Virus record (IMG/VR): IMGVR_UViG_3300036832_000333
Location: 1-22,691 of that record
Length of the DNA: 22,691 bases
DNA from: a virus
Strand: one strand, 5' to 3'
Position 1 is the stretch's first letter. Each line of letters opens with the position of its first letter. A program made the translations under genes and the position numbers. Below are positions 6,848 to 20,125 of the stretch, piece after piece. The notes below the pieces were generated by a model that saw only the letters and a program-made list of their open reading frames with translations, did not search any database and was not told where the DNA came from.

Positions 6848-8961
6848 TGACGACCGCAATTGATCTGATCTCAGACCCGAATCTGGGCATCGACCCTATT
6901 ACCTCGATGACGACACTGCGGCGCACTGGGTCGCAGCGCGGATACACAAACTCTGAACTGGAGCATTTCCGTATCGGCCACGGCGATATCAATTCGCTCG
7001 TACTTCAGGTCATTGCTTTTGGCAAAAAGAATCATCCAGAGCGCCACGACGCTCGGACCATCGTTTCAGATGCCACGTTCGAGGACAGCATAGACAAGAC
7101 AAATACCTTCACATTAGTTGTTCACGATCCAGATTGGGACCTTCTTAATACAGGGGCGCTCGATAAGCCAATCGACCTTAACCCTGGTAACATTCCGAAT
7201 TTGATCTATCGTCGTGATAGCTTCGAGGTCAGCAATGATGACATCACGATAACGTTCGTCACACGGAACGCGGCCTATATGTCGTACTACAAGCGGCCAA
7301 AGAAGGCCAATCGAAAGAACACAACGCGAGCCGAGTTCCTTCTCAGTTTGACCAGGGACGTCAAAGAAGCCAAAATTCCTTTTGTCTGTCCGCAGCTTCA
7401 TCAGAACCAGAAGATCGCGCGCACTCAGTTCCCGAATGAGATAGCTCGTCGCAAGGGCCGGGAGCATGGCTTCACCGCAAGCGACAAGATTACAGTGAAG
7501 GGCGCCACGGCCTCGCCAGCTCAGCGGCAAACCATCGAGAAGGTAATCTTGGCTGGTGAAGACTTGAAGATGCCGGGTTTGGTGATTGTATCAGCGGTGA
7601 TGTGTATTACTCAGGAATCGACCGCTGGCGCCGGTACAACTGGCAACCCACCATATGTCGGAGCTTTCCAGCAGAATCGCAGTGATGGTTGGCCGGGCAC
7701 AGGCGACGCATACAAAGACGCCAAAGGCAATGGTAAGATCGGCGTCAAGCAAGGTGGATACTACGGCTATGCCTATGGCATCTGGAAGGCACACGGCGGC
7801 GATATGGACTTGGGGCTGCTGGTAGCTACCACACAGGGAGTCATCGGCTCGACTAACCCGCTGAACAACGGTTATGCCCAGAGCACTAACCGATGGCGCG
7901 GAGAGGCTCAGCACGCAGTCAATGCCTTTGGAGGAATAGACGTCAGTGATCCTGGTTCCTCGACGCACAACGTTTACTACAAACAGAAGTATGAGTTTAT
8001 GGTAGGTCCTCCTGACGGCAACCGTAATGAGAACTACCTCGCTGCTTCATACCGGCTCGCCGATGAGGTGAATTGGTCTGCCTTCTGGGTTCGTGATGCT
8101 TTGCACTTTATCAGCGAGGAGGACCTGTTCAAGAGCAAGCCTCAAGCCAGCATGCGCCGCTTTGGTCGTGGCATTGAGGGAGTCAGCTTCGGTTGGGATA
8201 CGCAGCAGCGCATCAACCAGATGACGTTGAGCGTTCGTATGGAGCGGTGGGTATGCCCGCTCGGCACTGTCGTTCATTTCGAGGAGGGCGGGCCAGCAGA
8301 AGGTCGCTGGCTCGTAACCAATATACGGCGCTCTATGTTCGATGAGCTTGGCGAGATTACCCTGAGCAAGCCAATGCGCGAGAAGATGGAGCCAGCCAAT
8401 CAGCCTGGGGAGCGCCAAGTCAGGTCTGGTGGCAAGAACCGCTCCATCACCGATATTAGTGGGACCACCGTGGATGGGTTCAACAACCCGTTCCCGGATG
8501 GCTGGACACCAGGTCGGTTGGACATGGGTTACGATGGCACGTTTAGGAATCGGATCGTCGCGCCGTTCGATGGCTTGATCACCTATGCTGCTCAAAGGTT
8601 CTCCAACTGGGGCGGTTTCATCGTTCTTCAGTCACCAACGGATATCGGCCTACCGACCAAGACCCTGTACTTCGCGGAGGGTCTGTCCCCGACTGTTCAT
8701 ACCAACCAGTCGGTGAAGGCGGGACAGACAATTGCCACGCCAACGCCATCGGTGCAGGGTGGCGCAGGATCAATCGAGTGGGGAGTGGGGAATGAGGCGC
8801 ACGCACTCGGCCCTGTTGATCCTTACGGCAAGACACTCGGCGGCGGATCGAGTTCTGCATCAGCAGCGTCGAGGAATATGGTGCTTGAATTCTCGGCATG
8901 GTGTCAGTCGGTCCTTGGTTTGCCAGCACCTTCAACGACAAACGACGCGGGGCATTTCTGA
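6847..8961 (+). CDS. Baseplate hub protein with transglycosylase-like insertion and degenerate M23-like C-terminus
   Basis: A 704-residue protein whose ATG overlaps the previous stop by one base (TAATG). Residues 1-220 and about 395-515 look like the two halves of a gp27/XkdQ-type hub: beta segments, an E-E-D-L-F stretch, and [19 protein letters not shown]. Between them, about 225-365, sits a lysozyme or lytic-transglycosylase-like domain with a candidate catalytic Glu257 in CITQES and the supporting YVGAFQQ motif (270-276). It would cut peptidoglycan at infection. Residues about 556-665 resemble an M23 peptidase barrel ([31 protein letters not shown]). The zinc-binding His residues are missing from all three sites, so this part is probably structural. 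It lies between the LysM protein and the spike, the normal hub position. Confidence 0.85.
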
Positions 8962-11900
8962 TGCCCATCCTTCTTTATCAAGGCATCGTTGCCGACACGC
9001 CGGTTAATCTGACAGACAAGATCAGGATTTCGGTTCCTGATATGAAGACCATGCCTCGTCAGGTATTTGGCCCGCTGCCGTTCGACCCGGTAGTCTCCGG
9101 GCAGGGTGGGACACGGCTCCCTAAGGCTGGAGACAGGGCTGTCGTCGGGGTAGAGGAGGCTACGGGCGAATCTTGGGTCTTAGGGTGGCATCGGGATGAT
9201 ACAACGCCCCCGCCGTATACAGAGGCGGGTGGTGGTGGCGCTCCTGGGCCTCCTGGCCCTACAGGTCCAACAGGGCCGCCGGGTTCTACAGGGTCAACGG
9301 GGGCTCAAGGACCTACAGGACCTACAGGGCCGACTGGACCAACTGGACCAACAGGTCCGAAGGGTGCTGACTCAACCGTACCTGGTCCAACAGGCCCACA
9401 GGGTCCTACGGGCGCAACTGGTGCGACAGGTCCGCAAGGGCCAGTTGGACCGATGATCTATGACAGTGATCAAATCGGTGTCATCAAGACCTGGTCGGGT
9501 GCAGTAATACCAACGAACTGGATGCTTGCTGATGGTCGAGCATTGCAGCGCTCCAGTTACCCGGATTTGTTTACAGCACTTGGTGGTACGTCGAGTCCTT
9601 GGGGACTGCCTGACTCAAACACTTTCAACATTCCTGACTTGCGCAGCAAGATGATTGTCTCTGCTAGTGCAACTGCACCCTCTGGCTTGACAGCGCGAGC
9701 ATTGGCTGCTGTGGGTGGCGTAGAAGGTGTAACGCTTGACGCAACTATGATCCCTGGTCATAGTCATAACTTCAACATCAACACCGGTTATGTCTCTAGT
9801 GATCACAGTCACTCTTTCAACGTAAACAGCGGTGGCGCAAGCGCTCGGCACAATCATAACCCACCTGGTGGACAGGGAAACTTTGTCACCGGACTACAAA
9901 CCGGATCGCCGATGACCGGCAAGTTGTTAGCTGGCGGTGCAACTTACGGTTGGGATTACTACTCGCCGACAGGTGTTGATAATCAAGACCACGCGCACAA
10001 CGTCAACGGTGGAACAGCCGGGATCAGCGCGAACCATTACCACAATGCTTCTGGTGGAACTGACAACGGTACTGGTGGAGGTGGCTCGCACAACAACATG
10101 CCTCCTTGGTGCGCCGTCGCCATGATCATCAAGGTACTTGGTACTTCGATCAACCCTGGTGGCGCGCTGCAAGGTGCTACAGGGCAACGTGGCGCCATCT
10201 GGTATATGTACAACGGTGCTGGCACTCCTGCTGCTGGCACGTTCGTCGGTGAACTCGATGGTGACTGGGCAATTCGCAAGTCTGACGGCGAGAACTTCCA
10301 GCGCGTCGGCGGGGTGTGGGTCGACCAGGGATTCACCAACCGTTCGACAGCAACGACGACTGCGGCACGGGCGTATCGAGTAGCAGCGTTGAGTACAACT
10401 GCCTCAGCTGCGATCAAAGTACCGCTTGATGGCCTTGATTTTGATGTGAGTAGCAATCTGTTCAATTCGGCTAGTGGTCGGTTCAACATTCCAACTGCTG
10501 GCAGTTATCAGATCGACGCGCAGGTTATGCTGAATCCAGGCGGCGGTGTTGCAAACGCAAACACTACTGTGGAAGCTTTGATTTATGTAAATGGGGCACA
10601 ACGCAGCGGTGGCACCAGAGTATCTAACGTGGATAATCAAGGTTATGCCTGCTCGGTAGCTACTGACGTCTTGCGACTGAATGCTGGTGACTACGTTGAG
10701 TTATACGTCTATGCGACCAGTGCGTGGCCGCTAGGTCCAATCAACAGCACTACTTGGAACTCAATGGCCGTAGCGTTGATCACCGCAGGATCAGGACCGC
10801 AAGGCGCTCGCGGTGCGCAGTGGTGGACTTACGCCGGTACTGGTACACCGGCTAGCAACGCTTTTCCAACTGCTATTGTCAATGACCTGTGCGTAAGAAC
10901 TTCAGACACTGAAGTCTTCGCGCTAACTGCCAGCGGCTGGGTGGATCAAGGTTACAAGGCCGGTGGTTCGATTGCCAGTACACCGGTGGTTGCGAAGGCG
11001 CGACGTAATGGTGGTGTGTCTTGCGCGGCCGGTTGGAACCGAATCCCGATGGATACGCTGGTGTTTGATACGGTGGGGTCGATAGCGAACACTAGCGCGG
11101 GTCGCCTGGTCGCGCCATATACGGGCTACTATCAGATAAACGCGCAGGCTGGTGAGAGTGGCGCAGTCGAGTTGCTAATGTTTATTGCCGTGGGAGGCTC
11201 TGCTCCTGAAACGAACGGTTTCCGTGGAACCAGATATTCGGGAGCAGGAAATAACAACGGTGTAGCGGCTGGGCACCTGTACCTGAACGCTGGTGACGCT
11301 GTCGATCTGTGGGTTTGGGTTGCTAGCGCCTGTACGCTGAGTAGCTCGAATCCCGATATGACGTGGATGACAATGGCGCTGGCTCAACCGGGTGTTGGAC
11401 CACAAGGCACTCGTTGGTTTTCGTACAGTGGCGCAGGAGTTCCGCCTGCCAATACGTTCACTGGTGAAACTGATGGCGATATGGCGATTCGCACTTCAGA
11501 CAGTGAAGTGTTCAAACGAATCAGTGGCGCATGGGTTGACCAGAATTGGAAGATGGCAGCGGGCGTCAACCAGACAGCTAGTGCTGCCCGTATGTACAGG
11601 TCAGCGGCATTTACACCAGCTGCTAATGCATGGACGAAAATTCCACTTGATACGGTTAGCTTTGATACAACTGGGGCAGGCATGGCATCTGTCGCCAACG
11701 GTCGAATCAACATTCTGACTGATGGTCTTTACCAGGTGGATGCTAACGTCTTTCAAAATGTAAGTGCGACGGGCACATACACGAACTACGGGGTACAGGT
11801 AGCTAAGAATGGTGTGACGTTCTTGCAGAACTACAACGGCCCGGCAATTGCCACTTATAGTGGGATGGCAGGTTCGGACAAGGTTCAATGCAAGGCCGGT

Positions 11901-13610
11901 GACTACTTGGAACTTTACATTGCAAGTAGCCAATCTGCCGCACTCAACACAGGACTATTCGTAAACTACTTGTCAGTCGCGTTGATCGCAGCTGGCCCCG
12001 GTCCACAAGGCCAACGCGGTTCAAACTGGTTTACGTACACTGGCGCGGGAACACCTGCTGCCGGTACGTTCACTGGTGAACTCAATGGCGATATGGCAGT
12101 TAGGGCATCTGATGGCGAAGTGTTCACTCGTGTTGCTGGTGCGTGGGTCGATCAGAACTGGAAGCAGTCAACCGGCATGGCTACGATGGATGCTATGCAC
12201 ATAGTTGGTAATCCTAACGAACCAGCATTCCAGAATGGTTGGGTCAACTACGATATTGCCAACTTCAATCCATGTGGCTTCCGTAAGTATCCAGACGGCA
12301 AGGTTAGGCTGAAGGGCCTAATCAAAAGCGGAACAGTCGGTGGGCCTCCTATATTCAATCTTCCTCCTGGGTATCGGCCAGTACGTGAGTCACTTCACGA
12401 ACCTGATAATGTAGGTTCGATAGCTGACTTGCGCGTTCGGATGAATGGCGACGTTTGTTTGAATACAGGTTCAAACGGTTGGCTGTCACTTGATGAAGTT
12501 GAGTTTGACACTGAGACAGTAACAACGTACGCAGTTGGGACTCGCGGGTCGAACTGGTTTGCGTATAGTGGGGCGGGTACGCCGCCGACTCCATCGTTCA
12601 CGAGCGAGATTGACAACGATATGGCGGTGCGTACTTCGGATAGTGAAGTGTTCAAGCGGATCGCCGGTATTTGGACTGACCAGTCTTACAAGGCGGGTTC
12701 AACTCTTACAACGATACCGACTGTTGCAGCGAAGGCATACTTGGCGGGCGCGTTCACCACAACCAATGCGATGCAGAAGGTTCCACTGGACACCCTAGCG
12801 TTCGATGTCTCTAATAACTTGTGGGACGCAACGAACAAACGCTTTGTTTGTCCGTCAACCGGTGTTTACCATGTCGATGCGAACCTGGCATGGGGTGCAT
12901 CCTCCTGGTCAGGGCGTTGTCTCGTGGCGGTGTACAAGAACGGACTTGAGGTTCTCCGTACCGATGGTTACCGGACAAGCGACGCTTCTGATTTTCGAAC
13001 ATTCACGTTCTCAGATGAGATTCGTTGTAACCAGGGTGACTACCTTGAGTTGTACGCATGGTCGGCAGTTGGATTCTCATTGCAGACGTCAAGTGGCATA
13101 ATGAGCTTCCTATCGGTTGCTCTTATCAACGCTAGTCAAGGACCGCAAGGACCACCTGGCCCTGGCCCTGGTGGTGCGGTGCAGCGCAACATTGGCAAGT
13201 ATGCAGGATACAGCAATATATCTGGCACCGCCAACTTCCTGGATGGAGCTGGTGGCGGCGGTGCTGGGAGTCCGCTGATCTTGACTGTTACGCCGACTGT
13301 GCCGTCATGGTGGGAAGTTAACTTCCAATGCGGGAACATTCTCGCGCTGACAGCTGCGTACTACTACACGCAGTTACAGATGATCATGTCGCCAGCAGAC
13401 CTTGATGGGATCGGTCTCTCTGACGGCGCGGTGATCACGCAGCATAGCCAGGTACAACAGTATGAGGGCCGTACATTTCAGCGCATTTACCGTCTGGCGG
13501 CGAACCAGACCTACACGATTACCCCTGGCCTCGCATGTCAGGGTGGTTCGTTTCAATACTACACCGCGCCGACGCACCTCTGGATTGAAGGTAAGTTATG
13601 GCCACAATAA
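8961..13610 (+). CDS. Spike/tail-fibre fusion: OB fold, collagen-like stalk, collar domain, jelly-roll repeats
   Basis: A 1549-residue protein. The ATG at 8961 overlaps the hub stop (TGATG); an in-frame start at 8898 would overlap the hub by over 60 bases. Residues 1-80 look like a gpV/gp5-type OB fold ([32 protein letters not shown]). Residues 94-165 are collagen-like G-X-Y repeats rich in GPT. Residues about 170-400 form a tail-collar domain with paired His motifs (GHSHN, DHSHS, RHNHN, DHAHN, NHYHN) and the closing SHNNMPP, as in T4 gp12 metal-binding fibres. Then come five short W-x-Y-x-G-x-G-x-P modules, each ending W-V/T-D-Q, alternating with C1q/TNF-like jelly-roll domains. One is replaced by a PPGYRP-type domain (about 12180-12520). 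A last domain ends in KLWPQ. It probably forms trimers and binds the host surface. Confidence 0.85.
9240..9455 (+). repeat. Collagen-like G-X-Y coding repeat
   Basis: The DNA repeats short units of the form GGNCCNACN, coding for about 24 Gly-X-Y triplets, many of them GPT, with one interruption ([10 protein letters not shown]). This should form a triple-helical stalk between the OB fold and the collar domain. The synonymous sites vary between units, so the tract is old or under selection against slippage. Confidence 0.85.
10173..13136 (+). repeat. Five repeated fibre modules with jelly-roll domains
   Basis: Five copies of a module of about 50 residues start near 10173, 10794, 11398, 12000 and 12537. 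Each begins with a short G-x-x-G-x-R-G or similar link, then W-x-Y-x-G-x-G-T/V-P, an acidic N/D-D-M-A-V/I-R stretch, S-D-x-E-V-F and W-V-D-Q. Four are followed by a jelly-roll domain of about 140 residues with a shared core (KVPLD, F-D, G-x-Y-x-I/V-D-A, L-x-A-G-D-Y-V/L-E-L-Y, VALI). The fourth is followed by an unrelated domain. Parts of modules 3, 4 and 5 are also alike at the DNA level. Internal duplication followed by exchange is the likely origin. Confidence 0.75.
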
Positions 13611-14989: not shown

Positions 14990-15339
14990 TGACGACTTAC
15001 AATCAAAAGAAGGTACTCAATCCTCACCTGCGGCTGCCGTTGCAGTTCACCGGGGTGAACGGTGGCGCGCTCGTCAACGAACAAGATACTCCAGAAGACA
15101 TCGTTGATTGCATCAAAGCAGTTATCGCCTACCCAATCGGCGTTCGTCACGACATGCCGGAGTTCGGGATTCCTGACCTGGTCTTCAGGCAGGATAGCGC
15201 GACAAAGATTCAAGAGCTTCGTGATCACATCTCCGAGTGGGAGGAGCGCGCACAAATAGACACAGAAGGAGGCCCCTTGATTACAGACTCGATGATCTGG
15301 GATATCTTGGTAAAGGCAGGGGTGACGCAGGATGCCTGA
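14989..15339 (+). CDS. Baseplate wedge protein, gp25-like
   Basis: A 116-residue protein whose GTG overlaps the previous stop by one base (TAGTG). It has the gp25/GPW pattern: a loop with LPLQFTGVNGGALVNEQD, then a helix (EDIVDCIKAVIAYPIGVR), the conserved P-E-F-G-I-P-D-L and a D-x-x-x helix after it. Members of the family form the inner core of each baseplate wedge and nucleate the first sheath ring. Usual family length is 100-140 residues. It overlaps the following gpJ-like gene by 8 bases, the standard gp25-gp6 order. Confidence 0.88.
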   Translation: MTTYNQKKVLNPHLRLPLQFTGVNGGALVNEQDTPEDIVDCIKAVIAYPIGVRHDMPEFGIPDLVFRQDSATKIQELRDHISEWEERAQIDTEGGPLITDSMIWDILVKAGVTQDA

Positions 15340-16816
15340 TTACATCCTAGAACCGCTCGATACTGACGCCGAAGAAATCTTCCAGGGCTTCGTTGACTAC
15401 GTTAATCAGAGCTTCCCCGACTGGCAGCCGTCAGAGGGACAGCTTGATGTAATAATCGCTCGCTACTTCGCCATGCAGGCGGCCTTCACGGCAGATATGG
15501 CGACTCGTGTGCAGCGTGCCATCTTTCGATACTTTGGGAGCAGCTTGGCAGGAATCCCGCCATTGGCCGGCAGCCAATCGACTGCCATAGTTCACTTTGT
15601 GATCTTCGATGTAAATGTTCCGCCAGTCGACCATTTCCTGCCGCTTGGTACGCTCGTCGCCCTGACAAATGACAACGGCGACAGCATCGCGTTCTCGCTT
15701 ACGATTGATTTGGTTGCTCCAGCAGGGACTACTGAGTCTGAGATCGAAGTCCGGGCGCTCGACCTCGGTGAAGATGGCAACGGAATTACAGGAACCGTCG
15801 AGATGATTGAGCAGGTCGATTGGATCCAGACCGCCTGGGTAGTTGGGTATAGTGCGAACGGCTCAGACCCTGAAGATGACGACGTATACATTCAGCGTCT
15901 ATCCGACAACCTCGCCCTGATGGCGCCGAGGCCGATCCTTGCTGACGACTTCGCTGTTTTCGCACAGAATATACCAGGAGTCTGGCGAGCATCTGTGCTC
16001 GACAACTTCCGGCCCGGCACTCAGGAAGTACAGACTATCACGAGCAACTACACTGGCGGCACTTGGACGGCAAACTTCAACGGCCTCATAACAGCACCGA
16101 TTCCTGCCAAAGCAACCGCCGCTAATGTTCGTGACGCTATGGCTCTCCTGGCAAACTTCGACATTGAAGATGGTGACTTCGCCGGAGGCCCGCTCGGCAC
16201 CGCGCCGATCACAATCACCTATAAGGGCAAGTATGTGTACATGGATGTGCCAATGCTTACAGCCGTCACGAGCGGTTTGACGGGCGGTTCCGCGTTCACT
16301 ATTGTTGAGACCAAGAAGGGCACAGCATACGCTCTCGATATGGAGAACGCGATTGGCATCAGCGCCATCGATGAGTCTGGTAACCCGCTATCAGCGGAAG
16401 TCAAGGCTCAACTGATTGCATATCTTCAGAGCACCAGGGCGCAGAACTTCGTCATTACATACGTCGATCCTGCATACCATACGGTCGATGTGACGTATAC
16501 CGCACACGCGCTCCGCTATCAAGATCCAAACTCGGTCGAAACTGCTATCAACGGCTCTCTGGCGTACTACCTCGATCCTTCACAGTGGGGCATGTATCCG
16601 AACCAAGCACAGTCGCGTATCTGGAACCTGCAATCTATGGTTCGCTATCTTGAACTCACTACAATAATCGAGAATACCACTGGCGTCGATTACACATCGA
16701 GCCTGACATTCGCGCTCGATGGTGGCGCTATGAACTCTAGTGATAAGAGTTTCACTGGGCCATTCAGCCTGACTCGGCCTGGCAATTTTAACGGCACAAT
16801 CGTCCTTCCCACCTGA
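15332..16816 (+). CDS. Baseplate wedge protein, gp6/gpJ-like, with inserted structural module
   Basis: A 494-residue protein with ATG start, overlapping the gp25-like gene by 8 bases. The N-terminal region (PDWQPSEGQLDVIIARYFA and later ATRVQRAIFRYFG) and the segment around residues 130-215 (GTLVAL...FSLTIDLVAPAG, then DDDVYIQRLSDNLALMAPRP) match the baseplate J family. The family core resumes near residue 332 with NAIGISAIDESGNPL and a helix with AQLIAYLQ. Residues about 232-331 are an extra beta module (QTITSNYTGGTWTANFNG, AATAANVRDA-like helix, FAGGPLGTAPITITYKG, LTGGSAF) of a type common in phage structural proteins. The product forms the dimer that links neighbouring baseplate wedges. 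Confidence 0.87.
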   Translation: MPDYILEPLDTDAEEIFQGFVDYVNQSFPDWQPSEGQLDVIIARYFAMQAAFTADMATRVQRAIFRYFGSSLAGIPPLAGSQSTAIVHFVIFDVNVPPVDHFLPLGTLVALTNDNGDSIAFSLTIDLVAPAGTTESEIEVRALDLGEDGNGITGTVEMIEQVDWIQTAWVVGYSANGSDPEDDDVYIQRLSDNLALMAPRPILADDFAVFAQNIPGVWRASVLDNFRPGTQEVQTITSNYTGGTWTANFNGLITAPIPAKATAANVRDAMALLANFDIEDGDFAGGPLGTAPITITYKGKYVYMDVPMLTAVTSGLTGGSAFTIVETKKGTAYALDMENAIGISAIDESGNPLSAEVKAQLIAYLQSTRAQNFVITYVDPAYHTVDVTYTAHALRYQDPNSVETAINGSLAYYLDPSQWGMYPNQAQSRIWNLQSMVRYLELTTIIENTTGVDYTSSLTFALDGGAMNSSDKSFTGPFSLTRPGNFNGTIVLPT

Positions 16817-16833: not shown

Positions 16834-17502
16834 ATGTCTAACGGTAGCCTTCCTGATATCTACCCGAACAACATCGGCGACGAGGCTTGCTATGTAGACT
16901 TCGCTCCGATCATTGATATGTACGGCGATACTGATGGAGCGCTGTGCACTTATCTACACGGCATCGCTTTGATGTATAAGCAGGTCGATGATATCGCTCA
17001 GGATGGTCCGAACGACGAGCCTGGCTGGTCACAAATCTTCGACCTATCCAGAGCTAAGACTGGGTGGCTACCTTGGACCGGACAGCTTGTAGGATACTCT
17101 GTACCGGCGCAGCCGAGCAACCAGAGTCTTGAAGATTACGATGCCAATCAGCGCGAACGAGTCATTACAAGATCGGCTTACCGGCGCGGCGAGATCGCTA
17201 TGTTGTTCGACATCATCGATGAGCAGCTTAACCCACCAAAGCGGGTCATCATCCTAGAGCGCAACGGCGGCGATCCATATGCCATTCAGGTCTATGTGAT
17301 TATAGACGACATAGCCACGAGTCAGGCTGAGGTGATTAGAGCCGCTCTATCGCAGAAGGTGGCTGGGCTGCTTATGAACGTTAGTTTCTTCAACGCATCT
17401 GATAAAACATACGATGTGTTAATAGCCGTCACAGTTACCTATCAAGGCGTCCTTGACAACTACCCGACGTATCAGGATGTCTATGCTAATATTCACCCAT
17501 AA
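16834..17502 (+). CDS. Baseplate / tail protein, P2 gpI-like
   Basis: A 222-residue protein with ATG start, 17 bases after the wedge gene; the AGGAA at the previous stop could serve as ribosome binding site. The segment TGWLPWTGQLVGY, followed by a helix with R-E-R-V-I and RRGEIAMLFDIIDEQL, then VIILERNGGDPYAIQVYVI, fits the tail protein I family, which joins the J-type wedge protein to fibres. It comes directly after the gpJ-like gene, as gpI does in P2. It is the last gene of the plus-strand structural block. The call rests on this pattern and order. Confidence 0.72.
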   Translation: MSNGSLPDIYPNNIGDEACYVDFAPIIDMYGDTDGALCTYLHGIALMYKQVDDIAQDGPNDEPGWSQIFDLSRAKTGWLPWTGQLVGYSVPAQPSNQSLEDYDANQRERVITRSAYRRGEIAMLFDIIDEQLNPPKRVIILERNGGDPYAIQVYVIIDDIATSQAEVIRAALSQKVAGLLMNVSFFNASDKTYDVLIAVTVTYQGVLDNYPTYQDVYANIHP

Positions 17503-17532
17503 GGTCTTTGATGACCTAGCCACAAATTGGGC

Positions 17533-17561
17533 TTGCAATTTAAAGTGGCCGGTGCTACGCT
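17533..17561 (+). promoter_or_regulatory. Weak candidate promoter for the intergenic RNA
   Basis: TTGCAA at 17533-17538 and TACGCT at 17556-17561 are separated by 17 bases, and would start transcription near 17568, at the first bases of the structured region. Each box matches the vegetative consensus only partly (4/6 and 3/6). The RNA may instead be the processed 3' end of the late operon transcript. Confidence 0.2.
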
Positions 17562-17917
17562 ACCTGAGCGCTGCGGCGGCGACGGCCAAGGCAGCGTATG
17601 GAGTGCCTGAGTGCAGAAACCAGTCTAGGCCCCTTGGCTCTGACTGACGTTATGTAAAGGGCAGCCTAGTCAGGATGAGCCGCTACGTCAAGGGAGCTAC
17701 CAGCTTGATGGCGTAGTAACCCGCTGAACAAGCGGTGTAAGAGCGGCCCTGTGCCGGGGCAACTCTGGCGGAAACTCTGACCGTGGTAAAGCCACGGACG
17801 CGGCAGAGCACACGGCTGGCAAGCTGGGGGCCGTCAATGGAACGGCTTAGTCAAGCAGCACGCAGGTTAGCCGCCTGCCTCCACCATTAGGGGCCATCCT
17901 TCGGGGTGGCCCTTTTT
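17562..17917 (+). ncRNA. Large structured non-coding RNA, family not recognised
   Basis: No frame here codes for a plausible protein, and the sequence is more GC-rich and far more self-complementary than its neighbours. Perfect or near-perfect helices include 17683-17692 with 17704-17716 (three-base bulge), 17721-17725 with 17731-17735, 17781-17786 with 17792-17797 inside 17763-17767/17804-17808, and 17625-17633 with 17659-17669 (two-base bulge) stacked on 17606-17610/17670-17674. A long-range 7-bp helix, GACGGCC 17581-17587 with GGCCGTC 17829-17835, would close the whole domain. It ends with a 5-bp, 7-base-loop hairpin (17862-17878) and an intrinsic terminator. Ends are estimates. I could not match it to tmRNA, RNase P RNA, group I or II introns or a known riboswitch. 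Confidence 0.6.
17891..17917 (+). terminator. Rho-independent terminator with UUCG tetraloop
   Basis: GGGCCATCC pairs with GGGTGGCCC (nine pairs, one of them G-U) around a TTCG loop closed by C-G, followed directly by five Ts. The T-run is only on the plus strand, so it ends the structural-operon/RNA transcript before it runs into the convergent minus-strand operon. The minus-strand side has no T-run. Confidence 0.92.
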
Positions 17918-17928
17918 GGTGCTCTAAT

Positions 17929-18012
17929 TTTCCCAGCTTCTCCCAGCCTCCGACGCCTACCCTGCCCTACCCCTGCGGCGAGGCATGACAATCTGGGAGG
18001 AGGCTGGGAACA
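17929..18012. repeat. Compound inverted repeat between the convergent operons
   Basis: TCCCAGCCTCC at 17941-17951 is the exact reverse complement of 17999-18009, 47 bases away. Each arm also carries a second, partial copy: TTCCCAGCTTC at 17930-17940 on the left and CTGGGAGG at 17993-18000 on the right. Neither strand has a T-run after it, so it is not a standard terminator. It could be a protein-binding site or an RNA stem protecting the 3' end of the minus-strand transcript. Confidence 0.6.
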
Positions 18013-18030
18013 AGGTTGGTATTCTGTACT

Positions 18031-18366
18031 TCAGCGCTCTAACCGCTCGGAAGCGTCCTTACAGTGCGAATCAAGAGTGCGCTTGATCTTAGACAGCGCA
18101 TCCTCCGCTGCCAGCGCCCGCTCTCTCCAGTAGAACGCATCGTGTGATTCGTTAGGGTCAAAGTACAACCAGTAGAGCAGCAGCACTGTGGCTTGTCCTA
18201 TGTCGCCCTGCTCCCATCGGTAGAACGTTCCCCTGCTCACGCCAGCTTGCTCGGCAGCTTCGGTTGGTGTGATGTCGCGATTAAGTCGAGCCTCTCTCAC
18301 TAAGCGTCCGAGGAACCTATGCTGTTCAGGAGTTGCTACAGCCGATGTGTAGCCCCGCGTACTCAC
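18031..18366 (-). CDS. Small XRE-type helix-turn-helix protein
   Basis: An 111-residue protein when started at the GTG that overlaps the thyX stop by four bases (GTGA). The open frame extends 40 codons further upstream inside thyX, but that part is Arg/Ser-rich shadow sequence. Residues about 14-66 form an XRE-like HTH: a first helix (QHRFLGRLVREARLN), then TPTEAAEQAGVSRGTFYRWE with the recognition helix in SRGTFYRW. The rest is an aromatic stretch and a charged helix (WRERALAAEDALSKIKRTL) that may dimerise as a coiled coil. It is last in the leftward operon and probably translated by coupling to thyX. A transcription regulator is likely; its target is unknown, though the inverted repeat just downstream is one candidate. 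Confidence 0.75.
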   Translation of the reverse strand: MSTRGYTSAVATPEQHRFLGRLVREARLNRDITPTEAAEQAGVSRGTFYRWEQGDIGQATVLLLYWLYFDPNESHDAFYWRERALAAEDALSKIKRTLDSHCKDASERLER

Positions 18367-19316
18367 CTTACCCAGCCGGCTTGGGGATCGCAGAGCCATT
18401 CCTCCGTCCTGACTTCGTCGGCGCGTCCTGAGTCCATGCGCTCGCGGATGGTACAACCTCTGTCGAAGTCTGCCTGGAACGGACACCTACCCATGGCAAA
18501 GCACACTGGTCTGAACAGATCGGATGAGGCTATGTATCTGAACTGCCATGCTGAGTCCTCAAACTGCTCGACTTCATTCTCACTGCCGACTGTCTGGATA
18601 TCGTACATATGTCCATACTCCGAAATGGCCTTGACTATCTGCGCGCCGACGAGCCGCCATTCAAACTGAGCCTGGGTACAGAGCCGGTTCCCTAGATGGT
18701 CCACGAGGTTCCTGAGGTTCGTCTTGTAGTTAAGGCGGGTCAGCGTGTCGTGTGGCAACACACCGCGTGCCTCCTCGGCCGGGATTCCAGCGCCAATTAG
18801 CGCGTTGTAGTGGTTCCACGCCGACTCCATAGCGGCTTTCCATAGCGTCATTGCCGTTCGGTTAGCGGATGTCAGCGGCCCAGGCCGCGCCGCTATCTGC
18901 TCCTTGACGGCAAAGCGTAGCGACTCCTGGGCGTACACCGCGGTCCGCTGCCGAACCATCTGATGCGTGAATGCTCTCGTGACATTCTCAATCATGAAGT
19001 GCAGGTCGATTGCCTCCAATGGCGCTTTGAGGTGTGTCTTGCTGACCTGATCCCAGTAGCGCCGTCGGTCGTCGTCGTCAAGGTCAGAGGGGTCCCGAAT
19101 GACTCGCCCCTCGTACATAGCGCACATCGCTCCCAATGCGCCAAGCGGGTCAGGAGTCGCGCTAAGGAGGGTGACCTTCGGCAGACCTTCAGCCTCAGTT
19201 GGCTCTGAGCTATACATTGCGCGGTCTACCCAGGTGCTGACTTCCTTCGATGACTCTTCCACTTTGACCTCCTGCCAATAGATTTTGCCAGCATCATCTT
19301 TGAGCGGAACTCTCAT
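18363..19316 (-). CDS. thyX: Flavin-dependent thymidylate synthase (ThyX family)
   Basis: A 317-residue protein with ATG start, overlapping the upstream glycosyltransferase stop by four bases (ATGA). It carries the ThyX signature as RQR-TAVYAQE-S (residues 122-132), that is RHRX7S with Gln for His, followed by LRF. The second conserved block is also present: EEARGVLPHDTLTRLNYKTN, then LRNLVDHLGNRLCTQAQFEWR (about 201-221). The family methylates dUMP to dTMP using methylene-tetrahydrofolate, FAD and NADPH; some phage relatives may act on other pyrimidine nucleotides. An N-terminal extension of about 45 residues and a C-terminal Cys-containing tail (GRCPFQADFDRGCTIRERM) are present. Nucleotide supply for phage DNA is the sure role; the variant signature leaves the exact substrate open. 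Confidence 0.9.
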   Translation of the reverse strand: MRVPLKDDAGKIYWQEVKVEESSKEVSTWVDRAMYSSEPTEAEGLPKVTLLSATPDPLGALGAMCAMYEGRVIRDPSDLDDDDRRRYWDQVSKTHLKAPLEAIDLHFMIENVTRAFTHQMVRQRTAVYAQESLRFAVKEQIAARPGPLTSANRTAMTLWKAAMESAWNHYNALIGAGIPAEEARGVLPHDTLTRLNYKTNLRNLVDHLGNRLCTQAQFEWRLVGAQIVKAISEYGHMYDIQTVGSENEVEQFEDSAWQFRYIASSDLFRPVCFAMGRCPFQADFDRGCTIRERMDSGRADEVRTEEWLCDPQAGWVR

Positions 19317-20125
19317 TGCTTTGTCCAGTCGATTCGCTTCTCCCAGTTAGTCACATGGTCATCCATAAACTTTTTCCACCAGCAGATCATTCGGCTGCCG
19401 TTGTTCGGTGTGCTGATGTATCTTGGACCCCACTTGTTGTAGATGATCTTGTGCGAGTGTAGCTGTCCTTTGATTCGTCGATCCTGATCCTCATCGTGCA
19501 GACTGTTGATGCCGCCTTCTGTGTAGCGACCGGCGATGCTCGTTCCATGCACTCCTGCATGTACGTACCAAGTGGCCTGTAGGTCTGCCATTCCCTGCCG
19601 CACTAGCTCGTCATCGCCCCAACCTGAATGCAGACGTACATCGAAGTTGCCGACTGCCAACACGCGCTGCACGTTGAGGCTGAAGAGCCGCTTGCCCAAA
19701 GCGCCCTTGCTCATAAGCGGGCGGTCCTCGTTCTTGATCGTTTGGTTTCCGAACATGAGTCCGTAGAACGGCACCATGATGCCGATGCCGAGTGTATTGA
19801 GTCCGTTCCATTCGTACAGCCGATTGACGTCGTACTCGGGTCGTGGGTATATGTCGTCGTCCGACATGATGATGCGGTCGCACCCCATATCGAACGCCCT
19901 CTTGACGATTTGATTTCGGCTGTAGTTAATCCCTCGATTGCTCTCAGGCAAGATGCTGATCGAGAACTTGTTATCTCGATACCTTGCCAGCCTATTGTGA
20001 TAGGCCGGGTAGTCATCCTTCTCTATGACAAAGATAACCTGTTCAACTTTCTGTCTCTGCCATTTAGGCACAATTCTGTCGATGAGGAATTCCCGCTTCC
20101 TCGATGGTATGAATACTATGCTCAT
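19313..20125 (-). CDS. GT-A-fold glycosyltransferase, possibly acting on modified DNA bases
   Basis: A 270-residue protein with ATG start, TAGGTGAG just upstream, seven bases after the polymerase stop. The N-terminus FIPSRKR and the segment RGINYSRNQIVKRAFDMG lead into a DXD motif in IIMSDDDIYP (Asp89-91), the metal and sugar-nucleotide site of GT-A enzymes. Further on, FDVRLHSGWGDDELVRQG (161-178) resembles the catalytic-base region of galactosyltransferase-type GTs, and H189/H193 sit in a WYVHAGVHGTS segment. It has no signal peptide or membrane segment, so it should act in the cytoplasm. Between a DNA polymerase and ThyX it may glycosylate hydroxymethylated bases, like the TET/JBP-associated glycosyltransferases described in phages. 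A sugar-transfer role on a protein is the alternative. No dioxygenase gene is in the window. Confidence 0.72.
   Translation of the reverse strand: MSIVFIPSRKREFLIDRIVPKWQRQKVEQVIFVIEKDDYPAYHNRLARYRDNKFSISILPESNRGINYSRNQIVKRAFDMGCDRIIMSDDDIYPRPEYDVNRLYEWNGLNTLGIGIMVPFYGLMFGNQTIKNEDRPLMSKGALGKRLFSLNVQRVLAVGNFDVRLHSGWGDDELVRQGMADLQATWYVHAGVHGTSIAGRYTEGGINSLHDEDQDRRIKGQLHSHKIIYNKWGPRYISTPNNGSRMICWWKKFMDDHVTNWEKRIDWTKQ

Follow-up and report, generated by a model that had tools for sequence, protein, structure and literature searches.

The 22,691-base virus record examined here (the window) carries rightward tail genes at its left and leftward genes at its right. On the rightward side, family matches were obtained for a tail-sheath protein (phrog_23, 1238-2722), a 1570-aa protein with tail-fibre matches (8898-13610) and a Baseplate_J protein (15332-16816), and the last gene of this tail operon encodes a 222-aa protein without a family match (16834-17502). 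The leftward genes encode DnaE (20133 to the window end), a glycosyltransferase-like protein (19313-20125), ThyX (18363-19316) and a helix-turn-helix protein (minus strand, 18031-18486). The coordinates of the latter are those of the longest frame, which begins within the end of the ThyX frame (overlap 18363-18486), and its true start may therefore be later. The Baseplate_J protein has matches in 25 phage records, 21 of them from Arthrobacter phages and four from phages of other actinobacteria, all with less than 60% identity. For DnaE, the best 20 of the 1,323 matching records are Streptomyces and Microbacterium phages, and Pseudomonas phages are the commonest (301) among all 1,323. As judged from the sequence, an actinobacterial host is likely for this phage.

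The element studied here lies downstream of the last tail gene, and on its other side an inverted repeat closes off the two operons, which converge at this point. It has the same orientation as the tail operon, and no gene is present downstream of it on its strand. A single relative was found to carry it, IMGVR_UViG_3300036846_000442 (locus L001 on contig G001, 47,556 bases), which is 93.5% identical over 6.6 kb. Upstream of the element, a promoter-like site on the plus strand (17533-17561) consists of TTGCAA (17533-17538), a 17-bp spacer containing TG (17553-17554) and TACGCT (17556-17561), which reads TACGAT in the relative. TTGCAA and TGCTACG(C/A)T are held exactly 17 bp apart in both copies, with diverged bases between them. 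The relaxed pattern TTG-N3-N14to16-TG-N-TA-N3-T is matched only once when both strands of the window are scanned, namely at 17533, just upstream of the 5' hairpin; in the whole contig G001 the pattern is not rare, with seven matches including that of the element. The element itself begins with a 5' hairpin (plus strand, 17568-17597; GCGCTGC/GCAGCGT with an inner GGC-GACG-GCC, pair probability 0.96-0.97), continues with what the fold and the pair probabilities suggest to be a structured RNA core (plus strand, 17598-17887) and ends in an intrinsic-terminator-type hairpin (plus strand, 17889-17917) made of a stem-loop (17889-17914) with a TTCG tetraloop and a T5 run (17913-17917). The strong plus-strand terminator proposed in the first-pass annotation is indeed a clear hairpin of this type, with 11 pairs in the fold, a folding energy of -20.6 kcal/mol and an unchanged sequence in the relative. 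A strict sigma-70 consensus scan reported neither the promoter-like site nor the terminator; the latter was probably missed since the scan lets the stem absorb part of the T run.

The meeting point of the operons is marked by a long inverted repeat (17930-18012; TTCCCAGC..CTCCC / GGGAGGAGGCTGGGAA), a neighbour of the RNA that lies outside it. Similar hairpins are found at the same junction in the close relative and in two further relatives, L006 (12580-12670) and L007 (12535-12605). In all four, the repeat is GC-rich, contains CTCCCAG/CTGGGAG boxes and has no T run; perhaps it is a two-way terminator or a protein site.

The presence of the element at this junction differs between related phages. 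L006 (3300015371_000034) and L007 (3300036841_000070), whose DnaE proteins are 91% (best segment) and 88% identical, respectively, are the two nearest syntenic relatives, and both lack the element: The relative of the 222-aa gene is followed by the inverted repeat with no such element in between, and a short frame of about 45 codons is seen by eye at the L006 junction. As a separate difference, these two relatives have a frame of 116-120 aa between dnaE and the glycosyltransferase gene (9529-9891 in L006, 9532-9882 in L007), where the window genes are directly adjacent. Relatives of the 222-aa protein were found at 18 loci, and the frames were tabulated for 16 of them (L028 and L030 excluded), including the contigs of L001, L006 and L007; the tables of L027 and L029 are identical. 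At the 13 more distant loci, a same-strand frame of at least 60 codons starts no more than 25 bases past the gene end or overlaps the gene.

Searches for further copies returned nothing beyond the close relative. With the element as query, BLASTN and nhmmer against 61 loci recovered the copy in the window and the L001 contig, and all remaining matches had an E of 0.64 or more. BLASTN over six whole contigs found the L001 contig, together with a second place of 19 bases there (E 0.028), and matches with E 0.23 and 0.25 in contigs G003 and G004; the G003 match and matches of 16-21 bases in L006 and L007 lie within the dnaE frame and were rejected as homologues. Against 50,697 phage records, BLASTN with the element region gave short weak matches, with a lowest E of 0.7 among the 20 of 76 listed, and a second search gave a lowest E of 1 among the 20 of 21 matching records listed. 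Among plasmids, 12 Rhizobium records have 23-base matches at chance level (E 0.3). When the pseudo-translated frames of the element were used as degenerate probes, only the L001 contig was found among viral contigs, and nothing was confirmed in genome contigs, where two scans, oddly, returned the same number of candidate stretches (594) despite different patterns and were counted as one test. Since such probes require near-identity, distant homologues could be missed. Finally, the covariance model R1 (126 positions), which is weak because it was built from two near-identical sequences, gave three matches over 47 virus and phage records: the L001 contig (4.2e-39), G019 (0.0014) and a Streptomyces phage (0.485). 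The latter two were rejected as chance matches; that in G019 lies inside a 482-aa frame (tail sheath by eye), owes its score mostly to one hairpin and has seven non-standard pairs in one helix.

Between 17568 and 17917, the two copies differ by 12 substitutions, eight in the first 30 bases and four in the 290-base core, and all 111 pairs of the best fold of the window stay standard in the relative. In the 5' hairpin, all ten pairs are kept in spite of the eight substitutions (simulated chance 0.008): C-G at 17574-17591 is replaced by A-U through a double change (C>A at 17574, G>T at 17591), and one-sided changes turn U-A at 17572-17593 into U-G and G-C at 17578-17587 into G-U. In the core no pair is broken (simulated chance 0.09 under random substitution), and further one-sided changes affect 17647-17670 (A-U to G-U) and 17698-17702 (U-A to U-G). 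Four of the five changed pairs thus become G-U, a pairing that is possible on the plus strand only. The collection of homologues and the search for covariation that had been proposed for this locus have yielded one relative, one double change and four one-sided G-U changes, with n = 2 copies and a tested fold that was derived from one of them, the window.

The folding analyses gave a mixed picture. The first-pass annotation had rested its case for a large structured RNA on an unusual density of helices and on two consecutive long-range pairings. The first of these, GACGGCC (17581-17587) with GGCCGTC (17829-17835), does join complementary sequences over 7 bp and is retained in the relative with one C-G pair changed to U-G. 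The second, GGCGGC (17575-17580) with GCCGCC (17870-17875), is present in the window but not conserved, as 17576 G>T and 17577 C>A introduce two mismatches in the relative. Both are absent among the stems of at least three pairs with a probability above 0.3, and bases 17585-17587, which belong to the first, are paired locally instead (probability 0.96). The density of perfect helices does not hold up: as compared with 60 dinucleotide shuffles of 17562-17917 it is at chance level, with 21 helices of at least 6 bp observed versus a shuffle mean of 16.9, five versus 4.0 of at least 7 bp, and one versus 1.15 of at least 8 bp. The folding energy lies modestly below that of dinucleotide-shuffled controls (z -2.76 for 17562-17917, none of 100 shuffles as low; z -3.03 for 17568-17917, none of 200; z -2.30 without the terminator, 5 of 200), but it is unexceptional for this phage: Five of 54 control windows (320 bases each, both strands) reach z -2.30, two of them with -3.85 and -3.52. 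The minus strand has a z of -1.0 for the stretch, and its core reaches -0.8 versus -2.4 for the core of the plus strand. Thermodynamics on its own would be insufficient to support the claim of a structured RNA. In the predicted fold, the local hairpins are the reliable part, among them confident ones in the core of the plus strand at 17682-17717, 17721-17735, 17740-17766 and 17781-17797 (fold and pair probabilities). The long-range part is uncertain and the long-range closing helices are not reliable, with a possible closing helix on the plus strand formed by 17599-17603 and 17879-17883 (p 0.82). The best folds of the two copies share 68 pairs of 111 and 119, and one pair of the best fold of the relative is non-standard in the window.

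How can the presence of such a stretch be explained? The open-reading-frame table bears out that 17562-17917 contains no plausible gene: Only two frames of at least 60 codons touch it, a 64-aa frame (17453-17647) that overlaps the upstream gene and a 75-aa frame (17906-18133) that starts within the terminator. It might encode one or more small proteins, given that 17568-17920 contains seven frames of 13-46 codons, that the frame of 35 aa (17783-17890) ends just 5' of the terminator and that the one substitution in a 21-aa minus-strand frame is synonymous. We regard this as very improbable. Neither the 35-aa frame nor the 64-aa frame has a PHROGs match at E<=1, and viral-contig probing with the 35-aa frame and its upstream extension led to the L001 contig only. 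Moreover, the four core substitutions cause four amino-acid changes in three plus-strand frames, and in the two other substituted minus-strand frames four substitutions cause three changes; in the adjacent gene, by contrast, 13 of the 15 substitutions are at third positions.

The stretch might also be a passive or decaying insert that is similar in the two phages by recent common descent or recombination and folds incidentally, as would fit its occurrence in just two such closely related contigs, the helix counts at chance and the control windows that fold equally well relative to shuffles. We consider this improbable, since pairs are kept in the diverged 5' hairpin as well as in the core, and a six-frame comparison of the element with the collected loci revealed no protein remnant (63 matches outside its own contig, best E 0.66). 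Moreover, the core has fewer substitutions than neighbouring third codon positions (4 of 290 versus 13 of 222 in the gene beside it; p 0.005 in a one-sided Fisher test). The low divergence of the core could itself be explained by recent recombination or mosaic descent, as a scan of the aligned region with 184 overlapping windows of 290 bases gave 45 with no more than four substitutions, two of them lying within the element. Finally, the tail operon could end in a structured 3' UTR, namely the element, which would stabilise and end the late mRNA or be processed from it. The element follows immediately after the final gene of the operon, has the same orientation and ends in a terminator-type hairpin, all in agreement with this idea. 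We nevertheless find it rather unlikely: a promoter-like site with conserved spacing precedes the element, the junctions of L006 and L007 have the inverted repeat only, and elements that protect a 3' end are usually shorter than 350 nt.

The best reading is still that of an unrecognised structured RNA, even though the helix density and the second long-range helix fail as grounds for it. It is supported by the pairs kept with a double change, the promoter-like spacing, the terminator, and the presence or absence of the element in syntenic relatives. We propose, with a probability of roughly 0.55, that the sequence represents an accessory gene at the end of the tail operon which is transcribed independently and gives rise to a structured non-coding RNA of some 350 nt. 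Transcription of the plus strand would begin near 17568, driven by an extended -10 promoter that belongs to the gene, and would stop at 17917 at a terminator that likewise belongs to it, and the gene would have been gained in the lineage of this phage and its close relative rather than lost elsewhere. It is tempting to speculate that the folded RNA acts in trans during infection, a role that we put forward only tentatively. As there is no downstream gene on the same strand for control in cis, binding to a host protein, the ribosome or a defence component would be the likeliest mode. A search for integrases with PF00589 and PF00239 gave no match in the four related contigs G001-G004, which are possibly incomplete, and a function in the lytic cycle is therefore more likely than a lysogeny-linked one. 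It is doubtful that the element stands for a new class, i. e. phage structured RNAs of about 350 nt with their own transcription signals, encoded by accessory genes at operon ends and acting in trans on the host in lytic infection; no Rfam family matched, and the claim of a categorically new RNA class is not yet supported by the sequence. Phages are well known to carry accessory genes for proteins. Accessory genes for RNAs that have a promoter and a terminator of their own have, to our knowledge, received far less recognition, and gene-finding programs overlook them. If it is transcribed, the element would provide a compact and testable accessory RNA gene with a defined junction and natural element-free relatives for comparison.

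The element was also compared with known RNAs. At gathering score, Rfam gave no match in the window or in the examined parts of the four related contigs, and the element is unrecognised in that sense. At E<=10, sub-threshold matches in the 531 bases at 17480-18010 were isrD, suhB, MIAT_exon5_3 and SOX2OT_exon3, and GOLLD, ROOL, OLE, tmRNA, group I/II intron and RNase P were absent from these matches. The element interrupts no gene, as an intron would. A tmRNA has a length similar to that of the element, and the hairpin at 17862-17878 followed by CTCCACCA resembles its 3' end. A tmRNA or tRNA-like 3' end was rejected, as ARAGORN found no tmRNA or tRNA gene and Rfam no match; moreover, the loop sequence TTAGCCG does not fit the T-loop consensus. 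ARAGORN found no tRNA in the window, nor were there any in the examined parts of the four related contigs, which may be incomplete.

The first-pass annotation had been unable to match the element to GOLLD or ROOL, and the Rfam result likewise does not support such kinship. The element shares with them that they are non-coding, structured RNAs borne by phages or prophages. Lengths above 800 nt are reported for many GOLLD members and 659 nt for one ROOL example, and both often occur near tRNA islands (PMC12286853). The element is about half as long as these quoted lengths and has no tRNA nearby, the vicinity of tRNA islands being a common, not universal, feature of GOLLD and ROOL. For the mycobacteriophages L5, D29 and StarStuff, abundant intergenic transcripts are reported, shown by RNA-seq and presumed to be non-coding (PMC5712189); they resemble the element, a predicted RNA, as intergenic phage RNAs but come from the right genome end and other intergenic regions. 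RNA anti-CRISPRs (Racrs) are reported to be phage non-coding RNAs that counteract host defence by mimicking CRISPR repeats (PMC10651486). An action of the element on host defence would follow the same idea, but it is far longer than one CRISPR repeat. A literature search found no description of the element.

Two minor observations concern the wider sequence of the phages. In contig G001, two gaps of more than 450 bases (42620-43094 and 45172-45756) are uncovered by any 75-codon frame. In the window, the 15 bases TAACCCGCTGAACAA occur in the same sense in a tail-region gene (7854-7868) and at the start of a hairpin of the element (17717-17731); the counterpart in the close relative is a 20-base match with one gap (G001 8939-8957, E 0.028), and the identity is probably due to chance.
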